A stretch of 43,173 nucleotides of DNA from contig JAHEDG010000022.1 in assembly GCA_024641335.1 (NCBI GenBank), forward strand, positions 1 through 43,173, read 5' to 3'. The notes below the pieces were generated by a model. It did no database searches and was not told the origin of the DNA. It was given only the letters and a program-made list of their open reading frames with translations. The DNA is from Candidatus Zixiibacteriota bacterium. Its GTDB lineage: Bacteria; Zixibacteria; MSB-5A5; UBA10806. A program made the position numbers and the translations under genes. Positions 9,286-40,612 of the stretch are shown piece after piece; the first letter of the stretch is position 1, and every line of letters begins with the position of its first letter.

Positions 9286-9290
9286 GGTAT

Positions 9291-9690: not shown

Positions 9691-9700
9691 CTTATGTCTG

Positions 9701-10558: not shown

Positions 10559-10570
10559 AGCTTTTTAATT

Positions 10571-11515: not shown

Positions 11516-11526
11516 GAGAGCAGATT

Positions 11527-13131: not shown

Positions 13132-13145
13132 AGAGAGCTGATATT

Positions 13146-13793: not shown

Positions 13794-13800
13794 AAGAGTC

Positions 13801-24260: not shown

Positions 24261-24302
24261 GCATAGTTGAGAATTCGATATCCTAATAAAGAGGTGTTTT
24301 GT

Positions 24303-24848
24303 ATGAAAGATCATGGATCTTTGCTGGAATCAGGTGTGCTTCAGGTTGCCGGGATGATGGAAATAGCCGCCCGGACAGCTCCCAAATCGAAGGGAGAGGA
24401 TTATATAGAAACCCTCACTCTGACCGGAGACAAAATCTCAGAATTGGCCGAAGCCATACTGGAGTTCGGACGGGAAACCGGACGGAAGAATTTCGACCGG
24501 GATTCCAAGAATGTCAGGGAATCATCGGCGGTAGTATTGATCGGCCTTAGGAAAAGCGAATCGCTGGGATTGGACTGCGGGGCCTGCGGATACCCCGATT
24601 GCGCCTCTCTGGATGCCGCCGATGTTAATGACGGCGATTTCCGGGGGCCGATCTGCTCGTATCGTCAACTCGACTTGGGCATAGCCCTGGGCTCGGCGGT
24701 CAAAACGGCCCAGATTTTCAATGTTGACAACCGGATTATGTATCGGGCCGGGGTAGCGGCCCGGCATATCGGGCAGGTGGATTGGGATTTTGTCATGGGA
24801 ATCCCGCTTTCAGCCGCTGGAAAAAACATTTATTTCGACCGCAAGTAG
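24303..24848 (+). CDS. DUF2148 ferredoxin-like iron-sulfur protein
   Basis: A 181-residue protein with a single Cys-rich site: C92, C95 and C100 in DCGACGYPDC, plus C118 in GPICSYRQ. This spacing is that of the DUF2148 family, predicted to bind one 4Fe-4S cluster. The C-terminal half has the family run LGIALGSAVKTAQIFNVDNR and a DWDFVMGIPLSA end. The role is unknown; members often sit near ferredoxin or oxidoreductase genes, but here the neighbours are an O-antigen ligase and L21. The start at ATG 24303 is preferred over an upstream ATG because AGAGGTG lies seven bases before it. Confidence 0.85.
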   Translation: MKDHGSLLESGVLQVAGMMEIAARTAPKSKGEDYIETLTLTGDKISELAEAILEFGRETGRKNFDRDSKNVRESSAVVLIGLRKSESLGLDCGACGYPDCASLDAADVNDGDFRGPICSYRQLDLGIALGSAVKTAQIFNVDNRIMYRAGVAARHIGQVDWDFVMGIPLSAAGKNIYFDRK

Positions 24849-24902
24849 CTGAAACAAAAGGCCATTGCGGGTGTTTAATTATTTTGAGCGACGATAAGGG
24901 TC

Positions 24903-24930
24903 TTGACGAACGGCGTTCATTAGTTATATT
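24903..24930 (+). promoter_or_regulatory. Candidate sigma-70-type promoter of rplU
   Basis: TTGACG (24903-24908) and TATATT (24925-24930) with a 16-base spacer. The start would be near 24937, giving a short leader of about 23 bases with AGGAGG at 24950-24955. This leaves no room for a structured L21 leader. Confidence 0.55.
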
Positions 24931-24959
24931 TGATATTTTTCAATCGCTCAGGAGGAAAG

Positions 24960-25271
24960 ATGCGTGCGATAATCGAAGCACAGGGAACACAGGTACCGGT
25001 CGAGGTGAATGCCAAATGCCGCGTGCCGAAATTGGATATTGAAGTCGGTCAGGTTGTCGATTTCGATAAAGTCCTTTTTCTTTCGGAAGAAGATAAGCCG
25101 GTAATCGGCCAGCCTTACATCGAGGGAGCCTCGGTAAAGGGCGAAGTTACCGCTCACGGACGGTTCGATAAGATCACGGTTTTCAAATTCAAAAAGAGAA
25201 CCAAATATCGCAAAACAACCGGCCATAAACAAAATTATACGGAAATTCTGGTCAAAGCGATAAAGCATTGA
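24960..25271 (+). CDS. rplU: 50S ribosomal protein bL21
   Basis: A 103-residue protein of exactly the L21 family length. It starts MRAIIEAQGTQVPVEV (compare the usual xYAIIExGGKQxxV), continues with GQVVDFDKVLFL, the PYIEGASVKGEV segment, and the basic C-terminal motif KFKKRTKYRKTTGHKQ with a TEI ending. It binds 23S rRNA. AGGAGG at 24950-24955 fixes the ATG at 24960. Usually rpmA (L27) follows immediately, but here the stop overlaps the bamA start and no L27 is present in the window. The GGKQ core is replaced by QGTQ, a variation in a normally conserved spot. Confidence 0.92.
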   Translation: MRAIIEAQGTQVPVEVNAKCRVPKLDIEVGQVVDFDKVLFLSEEDKPVIGQPYIEGASVKGEVTAHGRFDKITVFKFKKRTKYRKTTGHKQNYTEILVKAIKH

Positions 25272-27571
25272 TAAAAGGATTTTCGTTACTGGTATTTTTA
25301 TTGGCGGCTCCGGCCGGCGTATTGGCCCAACCCGGCGAGTTGGCCGCCGGAATTCCCCAGGAGACCTACTGGCAGCAATCGATCATATCCGTGGGTGTCG
25401 AAGGGATTACAGCCGCTGATACGTTTCTGGTATTGAACTCTTCGGGGCTGGTCGCTGGAGATATCCTGGCCCCGGGAATGGTTCAAGACGCCGTCAAGGG
25501 AATTTTCGGGCTGGGGCTTTTTTCCGACGTGGAGATAAACGCCGAGCGCGGCGATTCCGGCGTTCACCTGGTTATTAAGGTAAGAGAATACCCGAAACTC
25601 AGAAAGCTGAAATTTTCGGGCAATAAGAAAATCAAGAAGAAAAAACTTCAGGAAACAGTTACTCTTTTCGAGGGACGGCTGGCGGCGCCCAGAGAGATCA
25701 AGAATAACATCGAACGGATCAAGTCGTTATACTCCGAAAAGGGCTATCTGCTGGCTGATATCGAGCCCAGTCAGGAGCCGGTGGAAAACGATTCGGACCT
25801 GGTCGATCTCGAATTCAAAATATCCGAGGGCTCCAAGGTGAGGATCGGGCAGATCCTGTTTTCCGGAAACAAGGAGTTTACCGATAAGAAACTGCGCGGC
25901 AAGATGTCCTCGAAACAAAAAGGCCTTTTCCGTTCGGGATCGTTTGAACGTGAAAAGTACCTGGAAGATAAAGATAAAATAATAGATTTCTATAAAGAGC
26001 AGGGGTATATCGACGCGGTTATATTGAGAGATTCGGTTTGGTATTCCGACAATAAGACCCGGATGTTTATCAATATGGATTTGCGCGAAGGCCGCAGGTA
26101 TTATTACGGTTCCATGGATTGGGAAGGCAATACCCTGTTTACCGACGACGATTTCAGGGGCAAGATAAAGCTCAAAGAGGGCAAGATCTATAATCAGAAA
26201 AAATATGACGAGACCCTTTTTAAATTCCACGAGTTATATCAGGATCAGGGGTACTGGTACGCGCAGATAGAGGAAAATACCATCCCTCGCGGCGACACGC
26301 TTGATTTTCATCTGAAAATCACCGAAAACAACCCGGTTCATTTACGGCTTATAAATATAGTAGGCAATACCAAGACCCGCGAAAAAGTGATCAGACGCGA
26401 GCTTCTAATCAAGCCCGGCATGATCTTCAAGAGATCGTTATTGGGACGGTCGCTGCGAGAGGTCATGGTCCTTAATTTCTTCGGCGACGTTACTCCCGAC
26501 TGGGATATCCTGCCCAATGGCGATATAGACCTGAAAATCAAGGTTCAGGAAAAACCGACCGGTCAGTTTACCATAGGAGCCGGCTATTCTCAGCGTGATG
26601 GAATGGTGGCTACTATCGGTTTGGGAGTGCCCAATCTCTTCGGGACGGGCCAGACGGCCACGCTGAACCTCGATATGGGAAAACGAAGAAACACTTTTGA
26701 TCTTAGTTATCAGGAGCCCTGGCTTCTGGATACGCCCACGTCGCTCTACGGACAGTTCTATCTTCAGGATCGCAACTGGAACGACGCGTTTGTAGAGCGC
26801 CGGCTCGGCGGAAGTATCAGGGTTGGACGGCGTTTGCGCTGGCCGGATAACTATTTCAGGGTTTTCGCCGGATACAGGCTGGAGAATGTCGATTATTATG
26901 ATATCTCATCGAGTTATATCGAAGCCAACAGAGATAATCCGAATTCTATAGATAAGCTGAACTGGCCATTGACCACCTCGGCCGCTTCTATCACCATTCT
27001 AAGGGATTCAAAAGATTTGCCGCAGTTTCCGACGAGCGGCGCTCTGGTTTCCTGGAGAGGAGAGCTGGCCGGAACCTTGCTCGGGGGAGACTGGGATTAT
27101 TTCAAACAGGATTATACCGCGGAGTATTATAAAACTCTGATCTGGAAAGCGGTGGGTATGATCAGAGCCAGGTTCGGGGAGATCGACGGTATCCACCGAG
27201 GCGACAAGGATATTCCCTACAGCGAACGGTACGGTCCGGGCGGAGTCGATCCCGATGGGACTATCAGAGGTTATGACGACGGACAGGTGGGGCCTTATAA
27301 CAGAGGCAGGTTCAACCTGATTTATAATTTGGAACTCTCCGTGGCCGTCGCCGAGCAGCAGTTCTATGTGATTTTATTCGCCGACGCCGGGAATTCCTAT
27401 CTGGCTTTGGATGATATCAAGCTCACCAGGGGATACTATCGATCAATTGGGCCGGGCTTCAGAATAATCATACCGTTTGTGGGAGTAATGGGTTTTGATT
27501 TCGGTTACGCCTTCGACGGTCTCGATAAGGGCAAATGGAAAACCCATTTTCAGATCGGGAGAGGTTTTTAG
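25268..27571 (+). CDS. bamA: Outer membrane protein assembly factor BamA
   Basis: A 767-residue Omp85 protein. A signal peptide (about 20 residues) is followed by five POTRA repeats, roughly residues 38-110, 110-190, 190-275, 275-355 and 355-430, each with a GN/EGN turn (FSGNKKI, FSGNKEF, WEGNTLF, IVGNTKT). The rest is the 16-strand barrel with the loop-6 motif seen as IRGYDD near residue 665. It inserts beta-barrel proteins into the outer membrane. The start is TTG overlapping the rplU stop (TTGA), so it is co-transcribed with L21 unless an internal promoter exists. Confidence 0.95.
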   Translation: MIKGFSLLVFLLAAPAGVLAQPGELAAGIPQETYWQQSIISVGVEGITAADTFLVLNSSGLVAGDILAPGMVQDAVKGIFGLGLFSDVEINAERGDSGVHLVIKVREYPKLRKLKFSGNKKIKKKKLQETVTLFEGRLAAPREIKNNIERIKSLYSEKGYLLADIEPSQEPVENDSDLVDLEFKISEGSKVRIGQILFSGNKEFTDKKLRGKMSSKQKGLFRSGSFEREKYLEDKDKIIDFYKEQGYIDAVILRDSVWYSDNKTRMFINMDLREGRRYYYGSMDWEGNTLFTDDDFRGKIKLKEGKIYNQKKYDETLFKFHELYQDQGYWYAQIEENTIPRGDTLDFHLKITENNPVHLRLINIVGNTKTREKVIRRELLIKPGMIFKRSLLGRSLREVMVLNFFGDVTPDWDILPNGDIDLKIKVQEKPTGQFTIGAGYSQRDGMVATIGLGVPNLFGTGQTATLNLDMGKRRNTFDLSYQEPWLLDTPTSLYGQFYLQDRNWNDAFVERRLGGSIRVGRRLRWPDNYFRVFAGYRLENVDYYDISSSYIEANRDNPNSIDKLNWPLTTSAASITILRDSKDLPQFPTSGALVSWRGELAGTLLGGDWDYFKQDYTAEYYKTLIWKAVGMIRARFGEIDGIHRGDKDIPYSERYGPGGVDPDGTIRGYDDGQVGPYNRGRFNLIYNLELSVAVAEQQFYVILFADAGNSYLALDDIKLTRGYYRSIGPGFRIIIPFVGVMGFDFGYAFDGLDKGKWKTHFQIGRGF

Positions 27572-27615
27572 GTTATGAGAAGAGGGAACATTAATATAAA
27601 TTTCAGGAGCGGATT

Positions 27616-28134
27616 ATGAGAAGAATATCGATACTTTTGAGCCTGATCATTCTCGGCGCGTCGGGGGTATGGGCCCAGGGCGGTAAGATCGGTTACGTCG
27701 ATTCTCAGAGGATTTTCGCCGAGCTGCCGGAGTTTCAGGAGGCCGAGGCCAAATTCGACGGAGAAGTGAAGGATTGGGAAGCCCAGGCTACGGCCATGAA
27801 AGAAGTGGTCGACAGCATGATTGTCGAAAGAGACAAAAACTCCCTGGTCTGGTCAATGGCCAAGAAGAACGAGGTGGAGACGTTATTAGCCGCCAGACAG
27901 GACAGCCTGCAGCGTTATCTGGATGAGACCTTCGCCCAGGGCGGAAAGGCCGAACGACGGATGGCCGAGCTCTCCAAACCGCTGAAAGACAGGGTTATTT
28001 CTATTATACGACGGCTGGCTATTGAAAATGATTACGATATGGTTTTTGATGCCGCAGTGGTCAGTATCGCGTTTGCCAAGGAAAGTCTCGATTTGACCGA
28101 TGAGGTCCTCGCCGAATTAGCCAAAGAGAAATAA
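27616..28134 (+). CDS. skp: OmpH/Skp-family periplasmic chaperone
   Basis: A 172-residue protein with a cleavable signal peptide (hydrophobic to VWAQ, about residue 21). The mature start GKIGYVDSQRIFAELPEFQEA is the OmpH/Skp hallmark, followed by a long charged helical stretch (the tentacle region) and a C-terminal strand with DMVFDAAVVSIAFA. Skp-type trimers hold unfolded outer-membrane proteins. It lies between bamA and lpxD as in many bacteria. GGAG nine bases before ATG is the ribosome site. Confidence 0.92.
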   Translation: MRRISILLSLIILGASGVWAQGGKIGYVDSQRIFAELPEFQEAEAKFDGEVKDWEAQATAMKEVVDSMIVERDKNSLVWSMAKKNEVETLLAARQDSLQRYLDETFAQGGKAERRMAELSKPLKDRVISIIRRLAIENDYDMVFDAAVVSIAFAKESLDLTDEVLAELAKEK

Positions 28135-29151
28135 ATGGCGTTTACATTAAGTCAGGTAGCCCGGGAAATCGGGGCGGAACTCAAAGGAAATCCCGACCTG
28201 GAAATAGCGGATCTGGCTCCCATAGAAACGGCCGGGCCGGGCCAGCTTTCTTATATCGCCTCCGGAAAATTCAAGAAATACCTGGCCACCACCAAAGCGT
28301 CCGCTCTCATTGTTTTTCCGGGGCTGGAAAGCGATAAGCATTCGTTGCTGGTAGTTGGCGATCCATATCTGGGTTTCGCTAAAGCGATGCGCCTTTTTTA
28401 CCGCTCTTTTCTGCCGACGACTCCGGGAAAGCATAAAACCGCGTCGATAGCAGACGATGTCGAGATTCCGAAGGATTGCTATATAGGGGAATTCGCGGTT
28501 ATTTCCAGAGGAGCGAGGATCGGCGAAGGTACGGAAATACACGCCGGTTCTTTTATCGGAGAGGATACGGTTATCGGCAAGAGCTGCAGGATACTTCAGA
28601 ACGTGACCTTAAGAGAAAGAGTAACTATCGGCGATAATGTCGTGATCTATCCCGGTGTGGTCATCGGATCCGATGGATTCGGGTATGCTCGTACGGCCGA
28701 CGGCCATCTCAAGATTCCGCAAGCCGGTACCGTCATAATAGAGGATAACGTTGAGATCGGGGCCGGGACGACTATCGATCGGGCTACTCTCGGCGAAACA
28801 GTTATAGGCAAAGGAGCGATCATTGATAATCTGGTACAGATTGCCCATAACTGCAAGATCGGTCCCGGAGCCGTGATCTGCGCCCAGGTCGGGCTGGCGG
28901 GAAGTACGATTGTCGGCAGTAATGTGATTCTGGCCGGCCAGGTCGGGGTTGCCGGACACCTGACAATCGGCGAAGGAGCGGTAATCGAGGCCCAGTCCGG
29001 CGTTGCCGGGGATGTGCCGCCCAGGGCTGTGCATTTCGGTACGCCGTCCAGAGAAGTTTATCTGGCGCATAAGATTGAGGCCGGCCTGAACCGTCTGCCG
29101 GATCTGATCATACGGTTAAAGAAACTCGAAAGACTGATAGAGGACAAATAA
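28135..29151 (+). CDS. lpxD: UDP-3-O-(3-hydroxyacyl)glucosamine N-acyltransferase LpxD
   Basis: A 338-residue enzyme that adds the second acyl chain in lipid A synthesis. An N-terminal uridine-binding domain (about 1-100) has [14 protein letters not shown] and the [12 protein letters not shown] segment. A left-handed beta-helix of hexapeptide repeats covers about 100-310. SDGFGYA is at 179-185 and the catalytic H238 is in [10 protein letters not shown]. It starts right after the skp stop. The gene shows that the organism makes lipid A; lpxA, lpxC and fabZ are not in the window. Confidence 0.96.
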
Positions 29152-29169
29152 CATTATTATTCGGCGGGA

Positions 29170-29187
29170 ACCCGATCAGGGTCATTT
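29170..29187 (+). terminator. Weak hairpin after lpxD
   Basis: ACCC (29170-29173) can pair with GGGT (29179-29182) around GATCA, followed by CATTTT. The stem is short and the T-run broken, so it is only a weak candidate for ending the bamA-lpxD unit. Confidence 0.2.
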
Positions 29188-29231
29188 TCGTTTAGAATCC
29201 CGATATTGAATTTTGACCAAAAGGAGACAAA

Positions 29232-29561
29232 ATGACAAAAATAGTAGAGTTGACCGAAGCCAATTTCGATAGCGAAGTGAAGAAGGCCGAACTGCCGGTT
29301 CTGATAGATTTCTGGGCTACCTGGTGCGGCCCTTGCAAAATGATCGCCCCTTTCGTGGATGAAGCCTCGACCGCTTATGACGGCCGTTTGAAAGTAGCCA
29401 AAGTAGATGTGGACAACAATCAGAAGATCGCCTCGGAATTCGCTATCATGTCGATTCCGGCGCTTTTATTTTTCAAGAATGGCCAGGTTGTAGATCAGGT
29501 AATTGGAGCTGTTCCGAAAAAGATACTGTTTGATAAAATCGATAAGATTCTGGCGTCATAA
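29232..29561 (+). CDS. trxA: Thioredoxin
   Basis: A 109-residue classical thioredoxin. The active site is WCGPC at residues 31-35, within FWATWCGPCK; the cis-proline is in MSIPALLFF near residue 76, and a G-A/V-x-P-K element closes the domain. It reduces protein disulfides in the cytosol. AAGGAG at about 29220-29225 precedes the ATG. The stop overlaps the next gene's start (TAATG), which links it to the CoA-binding protein. Confidence 0.96.
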   Translation: MTKIVELTEANFDSEVKKAELPVLIDFWATWCGPCKMIAPFVDEASTAYDGRLKVAKVDVDNNQKIASEFAIMSIPALLFFKNGQVVDQVIGAVPKKILFDKIDKILAS

Positions 29562-29980
29562 TGTCTGATTTCAAGAACCTGGATACGGTAAAAAAAATCT
29601 TGCGGGACTACCGGACCATCGCCGTGGTCGGACTTTCGGATAAGCCTGACAGGCCAAGCCACAGGGTGGCTGCCTACCTGCAGTCGAAAGGATATAAAAT
29701 CGTTCCTGTTAATCCGCGCATTTCCGGCGCTCTTGGCGAGGACGCTTACCCTGATTTGGTTTCGATACCGTTCGGAATCGATGTTGTGGATATATTCCGG
29801 AAGAGCGAAGATGTCCCGCCGATAGTCGAAGAGGCTATTGCCAGGGGAGCTAAAGCGGTCTGGCTGCAGGAAGGAGTAATCAGCCCGGAAGCGGCGGCCA
29901 AGGCGGCTACAGCCGGGCTCGATGTGGTGATGGATTTGTGTATGTTAAAGGAGCATGTCAAAAATGAAGGCGATAAATAA
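29561..29980 (+). CDS. CoA-binding domain protein (YccU-like)
   Basis: A 139-residue Rossmann-fold protein. The sequence TIAVVGLSDKPDRPSHRVA and the GYKIVPVNPRI segment match the stand-alone CoA-binding family (as in the N-terminal domain of succinyl-CoA synthetase alpha and YccU). VDIFRKSEDVPPIVEEAIARG and KAVWLQEGVISPEA are later conserved segments. Biochemical function is not established for the family. It is coupled to trx upstream and overlaps the rhodanese gene. Confidence 0.88.
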   Translation: MSDFKNLDTVKKILRDYRTIAVVGLSDKPDRPSHRVAAYLQSKGYKIVPVNPRISGALGEDAYPDLVSIPFGIDVVDIFRKSEDVPPIVEEAIARGAKAVWLQEGVISPEAAAKAATAGLDVVMDLCMLKEHVKNEGDK

Positions 29981-30380
29981 CAATTTTCTGTTCTTATCCG
30001 TACTGACGATTATGATGGTCTTCGGATTCTTATTTTCCTGCGGCAAAGGGACGGCGCTTGTCAATGTTGATCCGGCCAAAGCGGATATGATGATAAAAAG
30101 CGATAATCCGCCGGTTCTCATAGATGTCCGATCGGCCGAGGAATTTACCGGAGAACTGGGCCATATCCCTGGAGCCCGTCTGATACCGTTGCCGGATCTT
30201 CGGGATAGCCTGAGTGTGATAGGAACGTTCGGCGATCGCGATCTGCTTATAGTTTGCAGATCGGGGCGCAGATCGACATTGGCCGGGAATCAGTTAATGG
30301 ATTCCGGTTTTAAGAGCGTTTATAATTTGCGGGGCGGGATGAATGCCTGGATTCAATATGGCGGAGATATCGAAAAATAA
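29964..30380 (+). CDS. Rhodanese-like domain lipoprotein
   Basis: A protein of about 138 residues. The N-terminus is a lipoprotein signal peptide ending in a lipobox (LFSC, then GKG), so it is membrane-tethered in the periplasm. The rhodanese domain has LIDVRSAEEF and the active-site loop VCRSGRRST with the catalytic Cys. Such domains carry sulfane sulfur or act in redox sensing. AAGGAG at 29948-29953 is ten bases before ATG 29964 and only one before ATG 29955, so 29964 is chosen. It overlaps the previous gene by 17 bases. Confidence 0.85.
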   Translation: MKAINNNFLFLSVLTIMMVFGFLFSCGKGTALVNVDPAKADMMIKSDNPPVLIDVRSAEEFTGELGHIPGARLIPLPDLRDSLSVIGTFGDRDLLIVCRSGRRSTLAGNQLMDSGFKSVYNLRGGMNAWIQYGGDIEK

Positions 30381-30516
30381 TGAGAATCTCGACGTCGATT
30401 TAGAGATTCTGAAACCAGGGACAGTATGTCCGAACTGCGGCTTTTTGAGGCTTGTCTTCGAAGGGTCGTTTGTTTTTTGCGGTCTTTGCGGTTACGGCCA
30501 AAAGAGATGCGGCTGA
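30358..30516 (+). CDS. 52-residue zinc-ribbon microprotein
   Basis: An ATG at 30358 opens a 52-codon frame ending TGA at 30514-30516, overlapping the rhodanese end by 23 bases in another frame. The product has an acidic N-terminus (NNENLDVDLEIL) followed by CPNCG (residues 24-28) and CGLCG (41-45), with one more Cys near the end. The two CxxCG knuckles 13 residues apart form a standard four-Cys zinc ribbon. It is too ordered to be chance. No strong ribosome site is seen, so translation may be coupled to the rhodanese gene. The function is unknown; such ribbons often bind nucleic acid or other proteins. Confidence 0.6.
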   Translation: MAEISKNNENLDVDLEILKPGTVCPNCGFLRLVFEGSFVFCGLCGYGQKRCG

Positions 30517-30641
30517 TAGAATTTGCCTGATCCGGTCCGGATCGCTTATATCAGTATTTGAGTCGAATCTCTTAATGCTTGCAGGCTATATGCTGATTCA
30601 GTATATTGATCCGGCAACAGCATACGATAGCGCGAGAAGAG

Positions 30642-31115
30642 ATGAAGATCAGGGAACCGTATAAAAAACTTCCGAAAATTGTCGAGACTTCAATCGAGTG
30701 GAACGGGGCCATGGGTTTCAAATGCAACTCCGGCTCCGGCCATGAGATACTGGCCGACGCCTCGGCTCATCATGGTGGCCAGGACGGCGGAGCCCGGCCT
30801 ATGGAACTTCTGCTTTTGGCTCTGACCAGCTGCACCGGTATGGATGTGGCTACTTTTCTTAAGAAAAGAAAAAGAGACTTGCGGGATATGAAAATATCCG
30901 CCCACGGGCGGAGAACTCCTAATCATCCTCATGTTTTCGAAACTATCACGCTCGAATATGTTTTCGCCGGATCGGATTTGACCGATGACGATATCCGCTG
31001 GGCCATAGATCTTTCCCTGGATAAATACTGTTCGGTAGCCGGAATGCTTCGCAAGGTCTGCAGGATAAATTATCATTGGAAAGTTAATAAAACCGCTCCG
31101 GGAGCAAAAGCTTGA
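30642..31115 (+). CDS. OsmC-family peroxiredoxin-like protein
   Basis: A protein of about 157 residues of the OsmC/Ohr superfamily. The two redox cysteines are C64 in LTSCTGMD and C130 in KYCSVAGML, with family segments GGARPMELLLLAL and FETITLEYVF. Family members reduce organic peroxides with thiol electrons, but this YhfA-like subtype has no proven substrate. A longer in-frame start at 30606 exists; ATG 30642 is preferred since the domain begins directly after it and GAGAAGAG lies just upstream. The stop overlaps the rhomboid start (TTGA). Confidence 0.88.
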   Translation: MKIREPYKKLPKIVETSIEWNGAMGFKCNSGSGHEILADASAHHGGQDGGARPMELLLLALTSCTGMDVATFLKKRKRDLRDMKISAHGRRTPNHPHVFETITLEYVFAGSDLTDDDIRWAIDLSLDKYCSVAGMLRKVCRINYHWKVNKTAPGAKA

Positions 31116-31939
31116 ATTATTACAGGCCCTTTTCTCAGGGAAACTACAGTGGAAACAGTATGTTTCCTCCGGCCATAAAGTGGATTCTGCTTCTTAATGT
31201 CGGCCTGTTTCTCGGTCCTCGGGTATTTTATTTCGATCTGAATACTTTTCATCAGTTGTTCGGGCTGGTTCCGGTGCGGGTATTCGGGAATTTATTCTTC
31301 TGGCAGCCGGTTACCTATCTATTCCTCCACGGCAGCACCTGGCATCTGCTGATGAATATGTTCATTTTATGGATGTTTGGCGCGGAACTGGAGCGCAACT
31401 GGGGAACTAAGGAATTTTTAAGGTTCTATTTTATAACCGGTATCTGCGCCGGGCTGGTGAATGTGCTATTCGCGGCTTTTAATCCGGCCGCCCGATATAT
31501 ACCGATAATCGGCGCATCGGGAGCGATTTACGGTATCCTGGTGGCGTACGCTGTACTATTCCCCGACAGGCTGGTTTATATCTATTTTCTGATCCCGGTC
31601 AAAGTTAAGTTCATGGTGATTTTTCTGATAGTTATAGAATTTTTATCGACTTATAAACCCGACGGGGTGGCGCATTTCGCCCATCTGGGGGGCGCCCTGA
31701 TGGGGTTCGTCTACCTGAAATATAACCTAAGATGGCGGTTTCGACGATGGTCTCCGGTTGACCTTATGCGTAGAATAAAAGCCGAACAAATGGCTAAAAA
31801 AAGAGAAGCCGGGGAAAAGATCATGGACGAGGTAGACGCTATCCTGGACAAAATAAATCAAGTCGGCTACGAAAATCTCAGCCGCAAAGAGAAAAAAATC
31901 CTGGAAAAAGCCTCGGACAAGCTATCCGATCACCAATGA
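31112..31939 (+). CDS. Rhomboid-family intramembrane serine protease
   Basis: A 275-residue protein with six membrane helices in the first 205 residues. The catalytic Ser is S136 in GASGAIYG and the catalytic His is H191 in HFAHLGG. The HGSTWHLLMNMFILWMFG segment carries the conserved His and Asn of the oxyanion region. The C-terminal 70 residues are cytosolic, basic and helical (LMRRIKAEQMAKKREAG, then a helical hairpin), a common rhomboid extension. The start is TTG overlapping the osmC stop. Substrates are unknown. Confidence 0.9.
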   Translation: MNYYRPFSQGNYSGNSMFPPAIKWILLLNVGLFLGPRVFYFDLNTFHQLFGLVPVRVFGNLFFWQPVTYLFLHGSTWHLLMNMFILWMFGAELERNWGTKEFLRFYFITGICAGLVNVLFAAFNPAARYIPIIGASGAIYGILVAYAVLFPDRLVYIYFLIPVKVKFMVIFLIVIEFLSTYKPDGVAHFAHLGGALMGFVYLKYNLRWRFRRWSPVDLMRRIKAEQMAKKREAGEKIMDEVDAILDKINQVGYENLSRKEKKILEKASDKLSDHQ

Positions 31940-32024
31940 TATTTAAATATCCGGGACTTTTGGCCGATTAATATCTTATGCCCCGCGTACAGCGATGGCT
32001 GCCTGATTCCAAAGGGAGGGGATT

Positions 32025-33119
32025 ATGAAAAAAATAATTGTTGCCGAAGGGTCCTCGACTATAAAAAGTGTCGCAGATTCGTTGTTGCGGCAGCATGGGT
32101 ATGATGTGGTGTGTACGTCCGACGGCCTGCAGGCCTGGGAAGCGGTTCAGGCCAATCGGCCGGATCTGGTCCTGGCCGGAATAGGGCTTTCCGGTATTTC
32201 AGGTCTGGATCTTTGCCGTCAGATGTCCGGCGATCAGAACGCCAAACAGATTCCTGTCGTGCTTATGATTAGTGTCAAAGATAATATTTCCGAGGATCAG
32301 CTGTCCCGGATCGGCGCCAGCGAACGTCTGAAAAAACCGTTTTCCCCCCGCGATCTTCTGGAAGTTGTGAAAAAATTAATAGGTGAGGGCGAAAAAGTCG
32401 CCCAAGCATCTGGCACTACAAATGTTACCAAGTATAAAGCGGATGTTCTTTCCACAACTCGTCATTTGAACAGTTCTGAAAAAGAGGTTTATAACCTGGA
32501 CTGGTCGGACCTGGTGGATACGAAAGATATCGATACGAGTGAACCGGAGAAGGTTGCCACGCTGGGCCAATCCGATAATGATAATGATAATGACAATGAG
32601 CTTTTAATCAATAATGATCAATTCGGCCTTGTAGGCGCCGATTTCGAGACAGACGCTCCTGTTAAAGCTCCGGCGAAAGAGGATGATGACGAAGATTATA
32701 ATTGGTTTATCGGAGAGATGAAAAGGGAGATGGAAGGCGGACCCCGTCCGGCTGATAAATCGGAGAAGCCGGCGGAATCAAAACCGTCCCAGCCGGAAAA
32801 GGCTCCGGCCCCACCCGAAAAAGAACTTAATTTCGAGGATTTCGGAGCCAATGACGGAGGCGCTTCGGTCCTTAATCTGGACGAGCCTATAGCAGATGAA
32901 ATAATCGATGATGTTACCGATGAAGTTCCCGACCAGGTCGCCAATACTGTAGCGAGCCAGGTTGAGAATCTGGCTGCCGAGGTAAGCGGCCGGGAATTAT
33001 CCGAAGATGAAATCTCGAAGATCGCCGATAAAGTTACAGAGAATCTGGCTTCGGCCATAAGCTCCACTCTGGATAAAGATAATATCATTCAGGCGATAAA
33101 GTCGATTCTGGAAAAATAG
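32025..33119 (+). CDS. Degenerate (pseudo-)receiver-domain protein with acidic linker
   Basis: A 364-residue protein. Residues 1-120 have the full outline of a response-regulator receiver domain and keep the conserved Lys (KKPF, K104). However, the phospho-acceptor position is G52 (DLVLAGIGL in place of DLVLLDIML), and the acidic pair near residue 7 is reduced to A7-E8. It therefore cannot be phosphorylated in the usual way. Residues 120-300 are low-complexity, acidic and proline-rich, including a DN repeat. A C-terminal helical region (about 310-364) has SEDEISKIADKVTEN and may mediate assembly. There is no DNA-binding domain. AAAGGGAGGGG upstream is the ribosome site. It is monocistronic, with no kinase beside it. 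Confidence 0.8.
   Translation: MKKIIVAEGSSTIKSVADSLLRQHGYDVVCTSDGLQAWEAVQANRPDLVLAGIGLSGISGLDLCRQMSGDQNAKQIPVVLMISVKDNISEDQLSRIGASERLKKPFSPRDLLEVVKKLIGEGEKVAQASGTTNVTKYKADVLSTTRHLNSSEKEVYNLDWSDLVDTKDIDTSEPEKVATLGQSDNDNDNDNELLINNDQFGLVGADFETDAPVKAPAKEDDDEDYNWFIGEMKREMEGGPRPADKSEKPAESKPSQPEKAPAPPEKELNFEDFGANDGGASVLNLDEPIADEIIDDVTDEVPDQVANTVASQVENLAAEVSGRELSEDEISKIADKVTENLASAISSTLDKDNIIQAIKSILEK
32574..32597 (+). repeat. In-frame GATAAT-type tandem repeat
   Basis: Three GATAAT units and one GACAAT lie in tandem, encoding Asp-Asn four times. Unit length is six bases, so slippage would change the linker length without shifting the frame. Confidence 0.7.
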
Positions 33120-33227
33120 TTCGTTTTATTGCGCCATATAGCGTTGGTTTACGCGAAATATACATGACTTGATATGTGGGGATAATTCCGGGTTTTTTAT
33201 AATTATCGGGAATATCAGTCTTTACTG

Positions 33228-33257
33228 TTGCTTCCATCATGGTCATTTTAGTATAAA
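33228..33257 (+). promoter_or_regulatory. Candidate promoter of dsbD
   Basis: TTGCTT (33228-33233) and TATAAA (33252-33257) with an 18-base spacer. It would give a 5' leader of about 150 bases. The rest of the 293-base spacer (33120-33412) shows no gene or hairpin I trust. Confidence 0.3.
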
Positions 33258-33412
33258 CTATGGGATTCGAAGTTACTCGGACGGATCAGGAACCGCGAAA
33301 TATAATGTGCGGTTAGAATTCGTAGATTGGCCGAACTATTTAATGACGATCCGATTTACCGGGAGTTGCAACGATAGTCTATTATCAAGATTACGAAGGG
33401 ATCAGGAAAAAG

Positions 33413-35293
33413 ATGAATAAGTACCTAAAATTCACTATCGCCTCAATTGTAATTATTGGTTTATTCTCCGCTTCGAATTCGGTATCGGCCAGGGAAGACT
33501 CGGCCGGACCGGACGCTTTCTCATCGGAAGAACCGGTGTCCGTAGCGGGGTTTTCGTCAAGGCTTGAAATCGCCCCCGGTGAGGAGTTCAGAGTCGCTCT
33601 CAAGATCTCAATAGACGATCAATGGCATGTCAATTCCAATAGCCCGACACAGGATTTTCTGATCCCCACCGCGGTTACTCTTGATGATAATTCCGGGTAC
33701 AAGATCGTAAAATTCCGCTATCCGCAGGGGGATAGAAAGGCGTTCGAATTCAATCCGGATGAGCCGCTTTCTGTCTATGGCGGATCGATTTGGATAGATT
33801 TACTTTTGGCATCGGACAGCCTGGCCGAATCGGGGGATCTGCCTCTTTCGGTGAATTTGACCACGCAGGCTTGCAACGATCGGTATTGTCTGGCCCCGGT
33901 AACTCAAATCCTGGAATTTCCGATTAAAATAGATCCGGCATTCGCCGGCCATGAGATACGCCACCCATCCGTTTTCGAGGACGCGTTCTTCAAGGATTCT
34001 AAGCCTCCGATTCCCGCAGCCGGAGCGGATTCCAAGTCTAGTGAGGGTTTTTGGGGAATGATTCGGAATTTTGACGCTGCTGAATTTGTCGGACGTTTCG
34101 GATATTTTTTGGCCTTTATCGCCATGTACATATTGGGACTCGGTTTAACCCTGACTCCCTGCGTTTATCCGATTATACCGATAACCATCGGATATTTCGG
34201 TTCTCAGGCGGGCGGCCATTGGGGTCGTCAATTCCTGATTGCCGTTGTTTACGGCGTGGGGATCTCGATCAGTTACGCGACCATCGGCACGGTGGCTGCG
34301 TTTTCCGGCGCTCTCATGGGGGCGGCCCTGCAGAGTGTCTGGGTGCTTTTGGCCCTGGCCATTCTATTAATTGCCATGGGATTTAACGCTTTCGGAGTCT
34401 ATGAAATACGGCTCCCGACCTGGTTGATGGGACTGGCCGGGGGCAGCGGCCGAAAAGGTGTGATCGGAGCGGCTGTGATGGGGCTGACCATGGGTATCGC
34501 CTCCGCCCCCTGTCTGGCGGCGTTTATAATCAGCCTGTTAGCTTTTGTCGGCCAGAAAGGAGATCCGGTTTTAGGTTTTTCGATGTTTTTCGTTCTTGGT
34601 CTCGGACTGGCTACTCCGTTCGTCCTGCTGGGAACATTTTCAGGGATGGTCAATAATATTCCGAAGTCCGGGGCCTGGATGGTTTACGCCAAGAAACTGA
34701 TGGGATCATTGCTTTTCGGCGCGGCTCTGTATTTTTTGCATACGGTGATCCCCGTTCGGATATTTCATTCGATAGTCATGGTTTGTCTGACAGCCGCCGG
34801 GCTTTATTTCGGGTATTTCGAAAATTCCCTGGCGACTTCTCCGGTTTTTAAATCGATGAAAATATCTGTCGGTGTTATATTTATCGCCGTAGCTTTATGG
34901 TGGGGTATGCCGGCTGAACAGGGCCTTCCGACGGACGGCGTAAACTGGCAGCCATACTCGGAGACTGCCCTCAAACAGGCCATCGATTCGGGCAGGCCGG
35001 TGGTTATCGATTTCTACGCCGATTGGTGTATCCCCTGCAAAGAGCTGGATAAGTACTCTTTTTCCGACGAAAATGTCATCGGGCTGAGTCGGGAGTTCCT
35101 GATGCTCAAATCGGATCTGACCCGCGGGAATGATCCCGGTGTCAAGGATTTGGTCGAAAAGTTCGGGATCAAGGGTGTTCCGACAATATTATTTATAGAC
35201 AAGCATGGCCTGGAACTAGCCGATATTCGGGTAGTTCAGTTCGAGAAGGCCGACGAGATTAGCAGAAGATTGCAAAAAGCTGTTTCCGAATGA
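33413..35293 (+). CDS. dsbD: Thiol:disulfide interchange protein DsbD
   Basis: A 626-residue three-domain protein. After the signal peptide comes the periplasmic alpha domain (about 40-190) with the Cys pair in QACNDRYCLAP. The membrane domain (about 225-500) has eight helices, with the family segments TLTPCVYPIIPI and APCLAAF holding its two Cys. The C-terminal thioredoxin-like gamma domain has WCIPC in FYADWCIPCKELD. It carries electrons from cytosolic thioredoxin, encoded 4 kb upstream, to periplasmic proteins such as those in cytochrome c maturation. That fits an organism making many haem c proteins. It is followed by a probable terminator. Confidence 0.95.
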   Translation: MNKYLKFTIASIVIIGLFSASNSVSAREDSAGPDAFSSEEPVSVAGFSSRLEIAPGEEFRVALKISIDDQWHVNSNSPTQDFLIPTAVTLDDNSGYKIVKFRYPQGDRKAFEFNPDEPLSVYGGSIWIDLLLASDSLAESGDLPLSVNLTTQACNDRYCLAPVTQILEFPIKIDPAFAGHEIRHPSVFEDAFFKDSKPPIPAAGADSKSSEGFWGMIRNFDAAEFVGRFGYFLAFIAMYILGLGLTLTPCVYPIIPITIGYFGSQAGGHWGRQFLIAVVYGVGISISYATIGTVAAFSGALMGAALQSVWVLLALAILLIAMGFNAFGVYEIRLPTWLMGLAGGSGRKGVIGAAVMGLTMGIASAPCLAAFIISLLAFVGQKGDPVLGFSMFFVLGLGLATPFVLLGTFSGMVNNIPKSGAWMVYAKKLMGSLLFGAALYFLHTVIPVRIFHSIVMVCLTAAGLYFGYFENSLATSPVFKSMKISVGVIFIAVALWWGMPAEQGLPTDGVNWQPYSETALKQAIDSGRPVVIDFYADWCIPCKELDKYSFSDENVIGLSREFLMLKSDLTRGNDPGVKDLVEKFGIKGVPTILFIDKHGLELADIRVVQFEKADEISRRLQKAVSE

Positions 35294-35301
35294 TAGTTTA
35301 T

Positions 35302-35321
35302 CGGTCAAATACCGTTTTTTT
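35302..35321 (+). terminator. Rho-independent terminator after dsbD
   Basis: CGGT (35302-35305) pairs with ACCG (35311-35314) around CAAAT, followed by a seven-T run (35315-35321). The stem is only four base pairs, but position, nine bases after the stop, and T-run are typical. Confidence 0.45.
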
Positions 35322-35608
35322 CACTATCTAAGGTTTACGTGGGGAACTATCCTGAAAAAAACAATGTTTTATTTGATGGTCTTCGGATAGAATAATGATA
35401 ATTTGGCCGCCATCATCCGGAGACACTGGATAGCATCGGAATTATGAGTTCATTTGACACTTTTGCAATGAAGTGTCGAAACGAGTAGGCAACTTGATGG
35501 AGGCCGATAGTTTGATCCGGAGCGATTTCCTTCAGTCTGACCTTATCATCAATTCTATCGCTTATCAGTGCGGCCGGTGTTATGAAATGAGTATCCGGGA
35601 GACAGCAA
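35322..35608. other. Intergenic region with inverted repeat upstream of the anti-sigma-like gene
   Basis: About 290 bases with no recognised gene. A 49-codon ORF (35497-35646) overlaps the next gene start and shows no known domain. There is no sigma-factor gene where one would be expected. Confidence 0.4.
35453..35480. repeat. Inverted repeat GACACTT/AAGTGTC
   Basis: GACACTT (35456-35462) and AAGTGTC (35471-35477) pair perfectly around eight bases; the flanking TTT and GAA add weak pairs. TTGACA at 35454-35459 lies within it but has no clear -10 partner. It may be an operator or a leader hairpin. Confidence 0.4.
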
Positions 35609-36445
35609 ATGACTATCTGGGGGAGATTCCCGACCATGCGGCCTGATGACTGCTTTGTAAGCGAAGAGGAATTGAATCTCTATCTTGATCATCAGATCGG
35701 GTTGAGACGGAAAACGATTCTCGATTCCCATATGCAATCCTGCGGGGAATGCGCCGTCAGGTACGGCATAGCTCTAAAACTGGCCAATATTCTGAAGAAT
35801 CCTGTTATCCGTACCGCTGCCCCGGCATATCTCAATGGCAGAATATCTGCTCTGATAGCCGAGGGAAAGCCTATTGCCGGCGAGGGGTTTTGGGAAATGC
35901 TGAAGAATCTTCTCAGCGATAGGCCTTATATTCCGGTGGGAGCGGCTGCCGGGCTGCTGGCGGTTTTTGTTTTTGCCCTTTTCTCCGGTCATAGCCCGAA
36001 GGGAAATATGCCGTTTATAAAAGAACTGGTTCATGAGCATTATGAATATATCGAGGAGCCTGAGCGGTTAGGAATCAGAAGCGATGATCCTCAGGAGATC
36101 GTCCGCTGGGTATCGGATAACGCCGGTATGGATATCGGATTCTCGGCCACGGAAGATGCCGATATGCCCAGCCCCGAAGGAGCCTGTGTTCTCGAGGAAA
36201 ATGGGGAGACAATCGGGTATGTATTCTTCGATCAGCTGGGCCAACGGGTTTCTCTTTTCATGATCGCCGATTACCGGGATAAGCTGTTCGGGCAGACATC
36301 AATGAGTCTTGATGATATATCGGTATACTGCGGGAAATGCACCGGTATGAATTATGTACTCTGGAAAAATAACGATCTGGTCTGCGTGCTGATCGCCGAT
36401 CTTTCTCCTGATAACCTGGTCAAAATAGCCAGGCATATCATTTAG
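35609..36445 (+). CDS. Zinc-finger anti-sigma-factor-like membrane protein
   Basis: A 278-residue protein. The N-terminal domain is a zf-HC2-type anti-sigma zinc finger: C14 or so, then H41, C45 and C48 in SHMQSCGEC. One membrane helix (about 108-128) follows, then an extracytoplasmic domain of about 140 residues with Cys pair CGKC. Such proteins bind an ECF sigma factor and release it on a signal, but no sigma gene is adjacent. GGGAGA at 35597-35602 favours ATG 35609; ATG 35636 is an alternative start. Confidence 0.75.
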   Translation: MTIWGRFPTMRPDDCFVSEEELNLYLDHQIGLRRKTILDSHMQSCGECAVRYGIALKLANILKNPVIRTAAPAYLNGRISALIAEGKPIAGEGFWEMLKNLLSDRPYIPVGAAAGLLAVFVFALFSGHSPKGNMPFIKELVHEHYEYIEEPERLGIRSDDPQEIVRWVSDNAGMDIGFSATEDADMPSPEGACVLEENGETIGYVFFDQLGQRVSLFMIADYRDKLFGQTSMSLDDISVYCGKCTGMNYVLWKNNDLVCVLIADLSPDNLVKIARHII

Positions 36446-36698
36446 TTTCGTCAATAGCCATCCGCCCCTTGGTTTCGCCGACTCTCGAAAATTATCATCT
36501 CAATCAATTTCCTGAATCCCAGGTTTATTCTCACCGGCATCCGATAGAAAATCAGGTAAATAGGCTTGCGGCGCCGCCGATAAATATTATCTTATATCCC
36601 GATACTATCTGTCTCGCTGTCGAATAGATTTCGACGGTTTTCTTAAATTCGATCCCTGCTGATGACGATTACCCGGCAGGAGCGACGAAGGTTAGCCG

Positions 36699-37427
36699 GT
36701 GAGTGATAAAAACGTAATCTGCATTCTGGCCAAGCAACCCGTACCGGGATCAATTAAAATAAAACTTCAGGATAACCTGGGGAAAAAACAGGCCGCTTTT
36801 CTGGCCAGGGCGTTCCTGATGGATACCATCGCCACATCGCTAAGCGTTCCCCGTTCCAGGACTATTATCGCTCACTGGCCCTCTGATTCGGTCAAAGCAT
36901 TCGAGGATATTATTTATCTTTATGCTTCGGAGGAACCCAGGAAAAAGATCTCCGGGAAGGCCGATTCCATCAGCCTGATCCCCCAGACCGGTGATGATAC
37001 AGGCCAACGGTTCAGCTATCTTTCGGAAAAGATATTCGGAATGGGCGCCGAGAGGGTTCTTTTTGTAAGCTCCGACTGCCCTCAACTGGAGCCAGCCATT
37101 TACAGGGCCGCATTCGAACTCTTGAAGAAGAAACAGGCGGTTATAGGTCCCACGTTCGACGGTGGTTTTTATATGATGGGATTAAGGCAGCATTGCCCGG
37201 ATCTGTTCATGGAGATAGAATGGGGATCGTCCTCGGTTTACAAAAGTACGGTAGATAGAATCGATGATCATAATCTCGCCTGGCAGGAACTTGAGATCTC
37301 CTATGATATCGACAGCCCTGAAGAGTTGGAACAGTTATATCTGGATATAGATAATCTTCGTCTTTCGGGCGACGATTTTATCTGTTTTCATACGGAAAAA
37401 TGTCTGGCCAACCTGTCTAAAAATTAG
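36699..37427 (+). CDS. DUF2064/TIGR04282-family glycosyltransferase-like protein
   Basis: A 242-residue GT-A-fold protein. The N-terminal ICILAKQPVPGSIKIKL resembles the AKxPxPGxxKTRL start of the family, with the usual Thr-Arg pair changed to I-K. VLFVSSDCPQLEPA contains the metal-binding region, and GPTFDGGFYMMGLR is a very typical GP(A/T)xDGGYxLxGL segment. YDIDSPEELEQL is the conserved C-terminal motif. Members look like nucleotidyl- or glycosyltransferases and their reactions are mostly unproven. The start codon is GTG. It stands alone between two long spacers. Confidence 0.85.
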   Translation: MSDKNVICILAKQPVPGSIKIKLQDNLGKKQAAFLARAFLMDTIATSLSVPRSRTIIAHWPSDSVKAFEDIIYLYASEEPRKKISGKADSISLIPQTGDDTGQRFSYLSEKIFGMGAERVLFVSSDCPQLEPAIYRAAFELLKKKQAVIGPTFDGGFYMMGLRQHCPDLFMEIEWGSSSVYKSTVDRIDDHNLAWQELEISYDIDSPEELEQLYLDIDNLRLSGDDFICFHTEKCLANLSKN

Positions 37428-37812
37428 GCTAAGCCTCCATTCCTTCATAACTTCCGAATAACTGGCGATTATGGATATTGACCTTAGTATCGCCGCTAAA
37501 ACCGAATTATTTTACAACTGGATATTCCAAGTTTTCGATTCGATTCTCCTGTAAATATAGATCCTTTATTACAATAGAGAAATGCCCCATTCAGAGTGAA
37601 AATCAATCCGTTCATACGGCTCCAGGGGGAATTAAAATGGGTTGGGAACATGCCGATATTAATAGCGGGATGGTTACAGGCGTGTGCCATCCGGTATATA
37701 TATATATGCGCTCTTGATTAGAGGGAGTAGATTTGGCTAAAAACCGGTATTTCTGTTCGGATACGTTCGGCGATTCGGGTAAATGCGTCCTGTTCGGGGG
37801 GCTTCATAGCTC
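37428..37812. other. Leader region of the Ser/Thr kinase gene
   Basis: 385 bases. The left part is AT-rich and holds no gene I recognise, with only a lone TACAAT (37570-37575) that might be a -10 box. The right part carries two tiny ORFs, each with a plausible ribosome site. Confidence 0.45.
37637..37717 (+). CDS. Tiny ORF (26 residues) upstream of kinase, possible leader
   Basis: ATG at 37637 is preceded by AGGGGG with about seven bases spacing. The product (MGWEHADINSGMVTGV, then CHPVYIYMRS) shows no domain. It may be a leader peptide or chance. Confidence 0.25.
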   Translation: MGWEHADINSGMVTGVCHPVYIYMRS

Positions 37813-37816
37813 ATGA
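37733..37816 (+). CDS. Tiny ORF (27 residues) coupled to the kinase start
   Basis: TTG at 37733 follows GAGGGAG (37721-37727) at five-base spacing. The frame ends in TGA at 37814-37816, overlapping the kinase ATG at 37813. The product is MAKNRYFCSDTFGDSG then KCVLFGGLHSS, with two Cys. The kinase itself lacks a well-spaced ribosome site, so this ORF may drive its translation by coupling. Confidence 0.35.
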   Translation: MAKNRYFCSDTFGDSGKCVLFGGLHSS

Positions 37817-39552
37817 GTAACAGCCTGCTTAATACCACAGCGGTCCAGCATCTTTCCGTATCCAATTACAAGGTCGTCGAGCTGATTGGAACGGGAGGGA
37901 TGGCTAATATCTACAAGGCGGTACAGCTTTCACTGGATCGGCTGGTGGCTCTGAAGATAATGCATCCTCATCTTACGATGGATGAGGGTTTTGTCGCTCG
38001 TTTTGAGAAAGAGGCCAAGCAAGCCGCCCAGCTTCAGCATGAGAATATCGTTTCCATAATCGATTATGGCTCCGAAAACGGAGTTTATTATATCGCCATG
38101 GAACATATCGACGGTAAGAATTTAAGGCAGATATTGGAGAAGCAAAGACGTTTGCCGTTGGAGATCTGTCTTTTAATATGCCACCAGGTGGCCGAAGGTC
38201 TTAAATACGCCCACAGCCACAACCTGGTTCATCGCGATATCAAACCGGCTAATATAATTCTCTCGAGTGACGGAAGAGTATTGATCACAGATTTCGGGAT
38301 CGCCAAAGGGAATGACGATTTATCCATTACCGCCACCGGCCAGATGATCGGATCCCCGGCATATATGTCGCCGGAGCAGGCGGCGGGCAAGCATACCGAT
38401 CATCGCTCGGATCTGTTCAGCCTGGGGATAATACTGTACGAAGTAATCGCCGGCGAAAAACCATTCAGGGGCGAGTCTTATCAGGCTATGGTGGCTTCGA
38501 TAATGTCGGCCAGGCCGGAACCTATGCAAAAACTTCGCGTGGATGTCAATCCCGAGTTGGAAGAGCTGGTGGCCAAGTCTCTGGTTAAGGACGTGGATTC
38601 ACGGTATCAGAACGCCGAGGATTTTGCCGATAGCTTATATACCCAGCTTCAGCGTTTCAAAATTCCGCCGGTCAAAAAACTCATATCGAGTTTTCTGAAG
38701 AATCCGATTAAGGTGACAGAAAAGCTGAGAACCGAGAAAATATCGAATCATATGGAGTCGGCTCTTTATTTCCTGACCATGGGCGAAGGCAGATTGAAAG
38801 AGGCCAGGAAGGAGTTCCAGGAAGTTTTAAGGTTTGATAAAAACAATAAATCAGCCCGCGACTACCTTGCCAAGCTGCAGAGCCAATCGCCGCCTGGAAA
38901 GAAAAGCGCTTCACCACAAACCTATATAAAGTTGAAACAATGGCATCTGGCCGTGGGCGGCGGGATTATACTGGCGCTGATCCTGATTCTGCTATTTTCA
39001 TCCGGCAAGGATACCGCCGAAAAATCAACAGATTCCTCGAAAACATCCGAACAGATATCTACTCCGGTAGAAAATAACACCGTTGACGCAAACAACGATA
39101 AAACCAGCGGCGCCGATTCGGATAACAAGAATTCCGCGGAGGATACAAAAACAACCGATGATATCGGGACTGAAGATTCATCGGCCAAAAAAGATAACAA
39201 AACAACGAATGATAATGCTGTCGATAAAAAGAAAACCGAAACAACGACTAAAAAAACGACCAAAACAAACAATACGACTACTAAAAAGTCGGACAAGAAG
39301 AACAGCGATTTTAATTATCCCAACCAGGAGATCGGCGAGTACGGCATGGTAGCGGCGAAAACCAATGTCCCGGCCGAGATATATATAGATTTGACCAGGT
39401 ATGGCAAGACCAACGGCCCGCCGATAAAGCTCGCTCCGGGACGTCATTTCGTTGAAATCAAGGCCGACGGATACAGGCGTATGACCCGGCGAATATTCAC
39501 CGAAAACGGTAAGACGATAAATATGGAAATCGATATGATATCCGACCGGTAA
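37813..39552 (+). CDS. Transmembrane serine/threonine protein kinase with PEGA domain
   Basis: A 579-residue Hanks-type kinase. The kinase domain (about 19-285) has the P-loop GTGGMANIY (26-34), catalytic K48, HRDIKPAN with D142, DFG at 160-162 and a SPE in place of APE (SPAYMSPEQ). A TPR-like helix pair follows (about 325-357). One membrane helix (about 376-397) leads to a Thr/Lys/Asn-rich linker of about 95 residues and a C-terminal PEGA domain, including the APGRHFVEIKADGY motif. It probably senses an envelope signal and phosphorylates cytosolic targets. The ATG overlaps the stop of a 27-codon ORF. Confidence 0.93.
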   Translation: MSNSLLNTTAVQHLSVSNYKVVELIGTGGMANIYKAVQLSLDRLVALKIMHPHLTMDEGFVARFEKEAKQAAQLQHENIVSIIDYGSENGVYYIAMEHIDGKNLRQILEKQRRLPLEICLLICHQVAEGLKYAHSHNLVHRDIKPANIILSSDGRVLITDFGIAKGNDDLSITATGQMIGSPAYMSPEQAAGKHTDHRSDLFSLGIILYEVIAGEKPFRGESYQAMVASIMSARPEPMQKLRVDVNPELEELVAKSLVKDVDSRYQNAEDFADSLYTQLQRFKIPPVKKLISSFLKNPIKVTEKLRTEKISNHMESALYFLTMGEGRLKEARKEFQEVLRFDKNNKSARDYLAKLQSQSPPGKKSASPQTYIKLKQWHLAVGGGIILALILILLFSSGKDTAEKSTDSSKTSEQISTPVENNTVDANNDKTSGADSDNKNSAEDTKTTDDIGTEDSSAKKDNKTTNDNAVDKKKTETTTKKTTKTNNTTTKKSDKKNSDFNYPNQEIGEYGMVAAKTNVPAEIYIDLTRYGKTNGPPIKLAPGRHFVEIKADGYRRMTRRIFTENGKTINMEIDMISDR

Positions 39553-39675
39553 GCTGCCGGCAAATGACGGTTGATTATCTCTCATAGCGCCAATTAATAT
39601 AGGAGCAGTTCGCGGTAATATTCTCTTCACTTTTCTCTAAATCGGATATATATTTATTTTGTTATTCAGTGGCGG

Positions 39676-40593
39676 TTGAAATATACGGGGGGAGTATTGA
39701 AAAAAACGGCGGCGGCGGGCAGAGAACGATATCTGGCGGATTTCTCATTGCTTTTGACTACCGCAGTTTGGGGTCTTACCTTCACCGTACTTAAAAGTAT
39801 TCTCGGCAATCAGGTTTCGTCGATATTTTTTATAGCTATGCGTTTCGCGATTGCCGCGCTGGTACTCTATCCTTTTTGCAGGAGAAAACTTAGGGATCTC
39901 GGCAAGGGCGGTTTTCTCGGTGGAGTGGTACTCGGAATTCTGCTCTTTACGGGATTCGCCACACAAAGTCTGGGTATAGAGATAACCACCGCGTCAAAAG
40001 CCGCTTTTATCACCGGACTTTCAGCTATCTTTGTTCCTATGTTTCTATTTATGCATAAGAGAAAATTGCCTTCTTTGATCAATGGGGGGGCGATAGTCGC
40101 GGCTTTGGCTGGAATGTACTTACTGACCGATCCGGCCGGAGGAAGTTTCAATCGAGGTGATATTCTGGTATTGATATGCGCGGTCATTTTCGGGGCTCAG
40201 ATTTATGTCATGGAGATAGTAACTCAGGGGCGGAACGCCACTGCCCTGACTTTCGTGGAGCTTGCCACCACGGCCGTCCTGGCTGTCCTGTTTTTACCGC
40301 TCGAAAATGTTCAGTTCGAGTTGTCTTTAAAATTCGTAATTTTGATTTTTCTTATGGGTTCAGTGGCTACCGCCGGAGCTCTCCTGGTTCAAACCTGGGC
40401 GCAGAAAAAGACCTCGGCTGTGAAAGTAGGGCTGATCCTGACCGCGGAACCGGTGTTCGCTTATATGTTCGCGTCGGCGATATTGGACGATTATTTTAAC
40501 CCGACACAGAAAATCGGCGGCGCGATAATTATCGCGGCCGTGCTGGCATCGGAAATTGTCCCTCTTCTGATGAGCCGCCGGGCTAAAATCTGA
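39676..40593 (+). CDS. DMT-superfamily (EamA) transporter
   Basis: A 305-residue protein with about ten hydrophobic helices forming two EamA repeats. The first repeat has AVWGLTFTVLKSIL and FFIAMRFAIAALVL, the second has the AVIFGAQIYVMEIV segment and ILTAEPVFAYMFA, the usual EamA end signature. Members export amino acids, metabolites or drugs; the substrate cannot be told. TTG at 39676 is used; a second TTG at 39697 follows a GGGGGGAG very closely and is a possible alternative. It converges with the large secreted-protein gene. Confidence 0.88.
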   Translation: MKYTGGVLKKTAAAGRERYLADFSLLLTTAVWGLTFTVLKSILGNQVSSIFFIAMRFAIAALVLYPFCRRKLRDLGKGGFLGGVVLGILLFTGFATQSLGIEITTASKAAFITGLSAIFVPMFLFMHKRKLPSLINGGAIVAALAGMYLLTDPAGGSFNRGDILVLICAVIFGAQIYVMEIVTQGRNATALTFVELATTAVLAVLFLPLENVQFELSLKFVILIFLMGSVATAGALLVQTWAQKKTSAVKVGLILTAEPVFAYMFASAILDDYFNPTQKIGGAIIIAAVLASEIVPLLMSRRAKI

Positions 40594-40612
40594 ATATCCC
40601 TGCCCGGGTATT
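40593..40612. terminator. Compact bidirectional terminator-like stem between convergent genes
   Basis: AATA-t-CCC (40593-40600) can pair with GGGTATT (40606-40612) around TGCCC, with one bulged T. It touches both stop codons in the 17-base gap. The T-runs on either side are short, so termination strength is uncertain. Confidence 0.3.

Follow-up and report, generated by a model that had tools for sequence, protein, structure and literature searches.

Pseudo-receivers or aspartate-less receivers make up about 6% of bacterial receivers, and those characterised so far are mostly orphans (PMC12632262, PMC4395418), while the control of the bacterial ones has been described as unsolved (PMC12632262). 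Two described proteins are closest to the one analysed here. RomR is built from a receiver, a disordered linker and a short helical C-terminus (PMC3441718, PMC12719032), of which the linker has been reported as not conserved (PMC3441718) and the C-terminal helix carries a Trp (W394) that binds MglC (PMC12719032). FrzS of Myxococcus xanthus contains a pseudo-receiver in which Ala takes the place of the acceptor, DD2 and the switch Thr are lost, the Lys is kept and no Asp phosphorylation is needed (PMC1974792; PDB 2i6f). This pseudo-receiver binds SgmX (PMC12632262), which is a precedent for partner binding by such domains.

The window analysed here, i.e. the whole stretch of 43,173 nucleotides from a Candidatus Zixiibacteriota bacterium, harboured an ATG-started, stop-free open reading frame of 364 aa located exactly at 32025-33119 of the forward strand. 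Its first 120 residues (32025..32384, +) formed a receiver domain, matched by PF00072 (Response_reg) at residues 4-115 with an E-value of 3.8e-17. The AlphaFold2 model of residues 1-125, built from a six-sequence alignment, predicted a complete (beta-alpha)5 receiver with a mean pLDDT of 93.4 and a pTM of 0.88, whose best fold matches were solved receivers (TM about 0.84-0.90), the nearest being DivK, RR468 and PhoP, with the pseudo-receiver of FrzS lower in the list (TM 0.86, 30% identity). The pocket positions, assigned by alignment with canonical receivers and intact-pocket orthologues, were occupied by E8 at DD1, G9 at DD2, G52 at the acceptor Asp, I82 at the switch Thr and R101 at the K-3 aromatic position, whereas the Lys (K104) was retained. 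An earlier note made from the sequence had described a receiver fold that keeps its Lys, with G52 in place of the acceptor and a pocket reduced to E8; all of this was borne out, and the loss proved wider than stated, including G9, I82 and R101. The protein was thus confirmed, by alignment and structure prediction, as a pseudo-receiver with DD1, DD2, D and T replaced and K retained. In these losses it resembles FrzS, from which it differs in other respects, as FrzS retains the switch Tyr and continues into a 258-residue coiled coil and a C-terminal tail of its own (PMC1974792), while the window protein has R101 at that position and an acidic linker with an HDYxWF motif, predicted to be mostly disordered rather than a long coiled coil. 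Pfam and NCBIfam gave only generic receiver matches over the 364 aa and no output domain, and the NCBIfam matches listed included none to a RomR model. Moreover, a search of its own genome found the whole protein in a single copy. A whole-protein search of genome contigs yielded only ordinary receivers, a search of viral contigs yielded no member of the family and only two distant receivers, and no Rfam match was found in 24000-43173.

A profile made from 24 orthologues was used to search the genomes of the phylum with a cut-off of E <= 1e-35, by which the protein was matched in 88 of 132 genomes (all 132 also placed under the class). Relatives from the same family and the same order showed 41-50% identity to the window protein. 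Among the 80 aligned orthologues of the phylum, position 52 was occupied by G (36), D (20), A (13), N (7) or S (4). In the order of the window organism, the acceptor Asp was missing in all nine genomes, belonging to two families (f1 and f2), and DD2 was lost too; this D-less branch had a support of 100 in a tree built from receiver, C-terminal and rhomboid columns from which the active-site columns had been removed. As to the fixation of G52, raised in the earlier note, the loss of the acceptor is fixed in the order, and the residue varies across the phylum. At least three changes between D and non-D at this position are required on the tree, which gives no direction for them. Furthermore, the switch Thr was lost in nearly all orthologues, including 18 of the 20 that keep D, so that the Thr may have been lost before the acceptor. 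Three D residues in families f9 and f19 lie in pockets where DD2 and Lys are missing, and for this reason are probably chance returns. Between two congeners, the dN/dS values (Nei-Gojobori) were 0.11 for the receiver, 0.34 for the linker and 0.41 for the C-terminal part, so the dead domain is under purifying selection. Such a strong constraint on a pocket that appears dead argues against decay and, together with the lack of the acceptor throughout the order, supports the earlier view of a receiver working independently of phosphorylation.

The receiver is followed by a linker (32385..32990, +; residues 121-322), delimited by its composition and by a model pLDDT mostly <50. It had been called acidic and repetitive, of which the first holds (47 D/E vs. 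16 K/R in residues 126-314, and a net acidic linker in 80 of 80 orthologues), while no repetition was found beyond a short DNDNDNDN run. Outside its motifs the linker sequence was poorly conserved. The first motif, NLDWSDL (32493..32513, +; residues 157-163), is conserved in the order, with N157, L158, W160 and D162 invariant in its nine genomes. The second, DQ(F/Y)GL (32616..32630, +; residues 198-202), reached conservation values of 0.95 for D198 and 0.98 for Q199 in the D-less orthologues, the DQ(Y/F)G motif being present in 49/80 orthologues. The third is a docking-type motif, EDYNWFIGEMK in the window protein (32691..32723, +; residues 223-233), with the consensus HDYxWFxxEM or, more broadly, [H/E]DYxWFxxEM, which was better conserved than the phosphorylation pocket. 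In particular, F228 was present in 79 of 80 orthologues, the remaining row being gapped there and belonging to a gene truncated at the end of its contig, and W227 in 74; among the 60 D-less orthologues, D224, Y225, W227 and F228 were the most conserved linker positions (0.98-1.00), above most positions of the receiver. Searched as a DNA pattern in 58 genomes, this motif occurred at most once per genome, and the matches fell in this gene wherever coordinates were comparable. A helix over the motif (residues 222-237) was predicted with low confidence by a single-sequence model, and family f14 was found without the WF motif.

The C-terminal module (32991..33116, +; residues 323-364) was defined by alignment and profile. 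The last ~45 residues were conserved phylum-wide, with A342 invariant in the orthologue alignment A1, which upholds the segment noted earlier; its helices appeared only in the single-sequence full-length model, with a pLDDT of 52-66 there and of 41.6 for the whole model, which was not used for the fold search. The module is probably helical. Linker motif and C-terminal module together are the probable output of the protein, so the tail is more than a linker, and the earlier 'no output domain' should read 'no known output domain'.

The most constant neighbour of the gene was a rhomboid intramembrane protease with a cytosolic DUF6576 tail (31112..31939, +; PF01694 with an E-value of 6.1e-34, and PF20216). 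It was located directly upstream and on the same strand in each of the 79 orthologue loci for which upstream sequence was available, the gap between both genes having a median of 15 nt and being <=100 nt in 76 of the 79 (85 nt in the window). The catalytic Ser and His were present in 79/79 paired rhomboids and the cytosolic tail motif, which is PF20216 in the window rhomboid, in 78/79. GASA replaces GASG in 20 of the 79 paired rhomboids, all from families f9 and f18, with the Ser itself kept. An OsmC-family gene (30606..31115, +; PF02566) overlaps the start of the rhomboid gene and was found near the gene pair in the nine members of the order, where it is a probable member of the same operon. 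Other neighbours, namely OMP85, OmpH, LpxD, thioredoxin, a CoA-binding protein, OsmC and DsbD, were less constant than the rhomboid. In line with the earlier note, which saw no partner kinase nearby, no histidine kinase was found near the gene among the matches listed for eight genomes, whether D-bearing or D-less. In the literature searched, neither a pairing of pseudo-receiver and rhomboid genes nor a joint mention of DUF6576 and rhomboids was found. Pseudo-receivers in general also lack several of the five catalytic residues (PMC12632262, PMC4395418), but this family differs from them by its phylum-wide orthology, its graded loss, its fixed motif and its fixed rhomboid neighbour.

We consider it fairly probable that the protein is a phosphorylation-independent pseudo-receiver adaptor, encoded in one operon with an active-site-intact rhomboid and working at or with that membrane protein. 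The receiver fold would act as a constitutive protein-binding platform, with no switching by aspartate phosphorylation, while the flexible acidic linker would present the HDYxWFxxEM peptide, probably docking into a partner, and the amphipathic C-terminal helices would probably oligomerise the adaptor or engage another partner. In this way the receiver (through its surface), the linker peptide and the helical C-terminus may each hold a partner, making the protein a tether whose availability, and not its phosphorylation, would carry the signal. The adaptor is presumably co-transcribed with the rhomboid and would most likely act at or with it; because the gene pair is constant, the rhomboid is the first candidate partner. 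As a more tentative extension, the adaptor could bind and steer the rhomboid through the HDYxWF peptide, affecting its activity, its placement or the delivery of its substrates, as a phylum-specific couple. Control of a rhomboid by a pseudo-receiver adaptor was not found in the literature searched; if such steering occurs, it would be a mode of rhomboid control absent from it. Furthermore, the family offers a natural series that begins with an intact pocket, passes through single losses and ends with a receiver barely recognised by profiles, along which the linker motif and the neighbouring gene stay nearly fixed, which points to the functional parts and to concrete binding partners to test.

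A motility or polarity hub, as also proposed in the earlier note, would be a RomR-type protein that becomes polar through its linker and C-terminal helices, recruits MglA and MglB and controls type IV pili. The plan of the protein speaks for it, with an N-terminal receiver, a long disordered linker and a short conserved helical C-terminus (the helices being of low confidence in the window protein) as in RomR, neither having a DNA-binding or enzymatic output; in addition, the RomR of Bdellovibrio has been argued to be unphosphorylated (PMC3441718, PMC12719032, PMC6428892). The window organism likewise has MglA, proteins resembling MglB and genes for type IV pili, and its genome carries a single cluster with the genes for an MglA-type GTPase, PilB and roadblock proteins. 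The GTPase gene (L069 7744-8883; C19:43743-44879) encodes 379 aa, a long acidic extension at the C-terminus included, and sits between roadblock-type genes and PilB/PilT/PilC-like genes. MglA was found in 18 of the 20 genomes tested, and the two exceptions, both of one genus of family f4 (G010 and G019), also had no roadblock or full-length adaptor match, with PilB and the rhomboid kept. However, MglA/MglB and type IV pili, which accompany the adaptor in the genomes tested, are also present without it, as four f3 genomes have retained MglA, roadblock proteins and PilB after losing the adaptor. Moreover, M. xanthus RomR keeps its acceptor (D53), against G52 here; its linker is reported as unconserved (PMC3441718), against a near-invariant motif in this family; the MglC-binding Trp (PMC12719032) has no counterpart in the window protein, which has no Trp in its last 100 residues; and the adaptor gene adjoins a rhomboid gene, not mglA, no rhomboid operon having been seen described for RomR. 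The protein is RomR-like in plan, with two of the features compared for membership (acceptor Asp and MglC-binding Trp) absent, and a polarity hub seems a rather doubtful reading, despite the fit of architecture and co-occurrence.

The gene could instead be decaying and largely dispensable, in the course of being lost from the phylum, as suggested by the strong drift of the receiver in families f9, f19, f3 and f15 and by the rhomboid loci of at least four genomes of f3 and one of f4, in which the gene is missing. In two f3 genomes (G032 and G047) and one f15 genome (G037), the gene after the rhomboid encodes a receiver matched by PF00072 at only E 0.0029 or not at all; its position persists, the C-terminal module is still recognised in the proteins (profile E-values of 1e-5 and 2.9e-11), and the f3 adaptor carries a DYDLF version of the linker motif. 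The four other f3 genomes (L163, L167, L168 and L171) have no adaptor gene and show, by eye, a DsbD-like gene directly after the rhomboid; in the f4 genome G010, the gene after the rhomboid is nitroreductase-like (by eye). Against a decaying gene stand the receiver dN/dS of 0.11, the matches in 88/132 genomes at E <= 1e-35 and the near-invariant linker motif, which make it improbable. The rhomboid tail (VDxILDKINxVGxxNLTxxEKKIL) is highly conserved across the phylum with the adaptor present or absent, so a tie between the tail and the presence of the adaptor was left unsupported. Since the tail is conserved even in genomes without the adaptor, the rhomboid does not depend on the adaptor, and their pairing could reflect ancestral gene order, which speaks against the favoured adaptor reading.

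Phosphorylation at another residue was likewise judged improbable. It could be carried out by the Ser/Thr kinase at 37813..39552 (+; NF033483 match below the cut-off), which lies ~4.7 kb downstream of the adaptor gene and shows synteny in several genomes of the order; many S/T/N/Q residues are also present in the linker. However, in the regions compared the kinase was close to the gene only within the order, and the linker is poorly conserved outside its motifs. This kinase, which the earlier note had put forward as a partner to look at, was thus rejected as a constant partner, the constant neighbour being the rhomboid. Finally, an ordinary response regulator altered by a recent mutation or a sequencing error, to which orthologues with an intact Asp were taken to point, is hardly credible, since these were found only outside the order (20/80), and it is refuted by the nine D-less genomes of the order, with their two families, branch support of 100 and loss of DD2, along with the receiver dN/dS.

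Elsewhere in the window, a large respiratory cluster was observed at 1848-14211, which by eye, from the ORF translations, looks like an alternative complex III followed by a caa3-type oxidase. On the reverse strand, 40611-43016 encodes a large secreted-type protein with an apparent T9SS/Por-type C-terminal sorting tail, also identified by eye.
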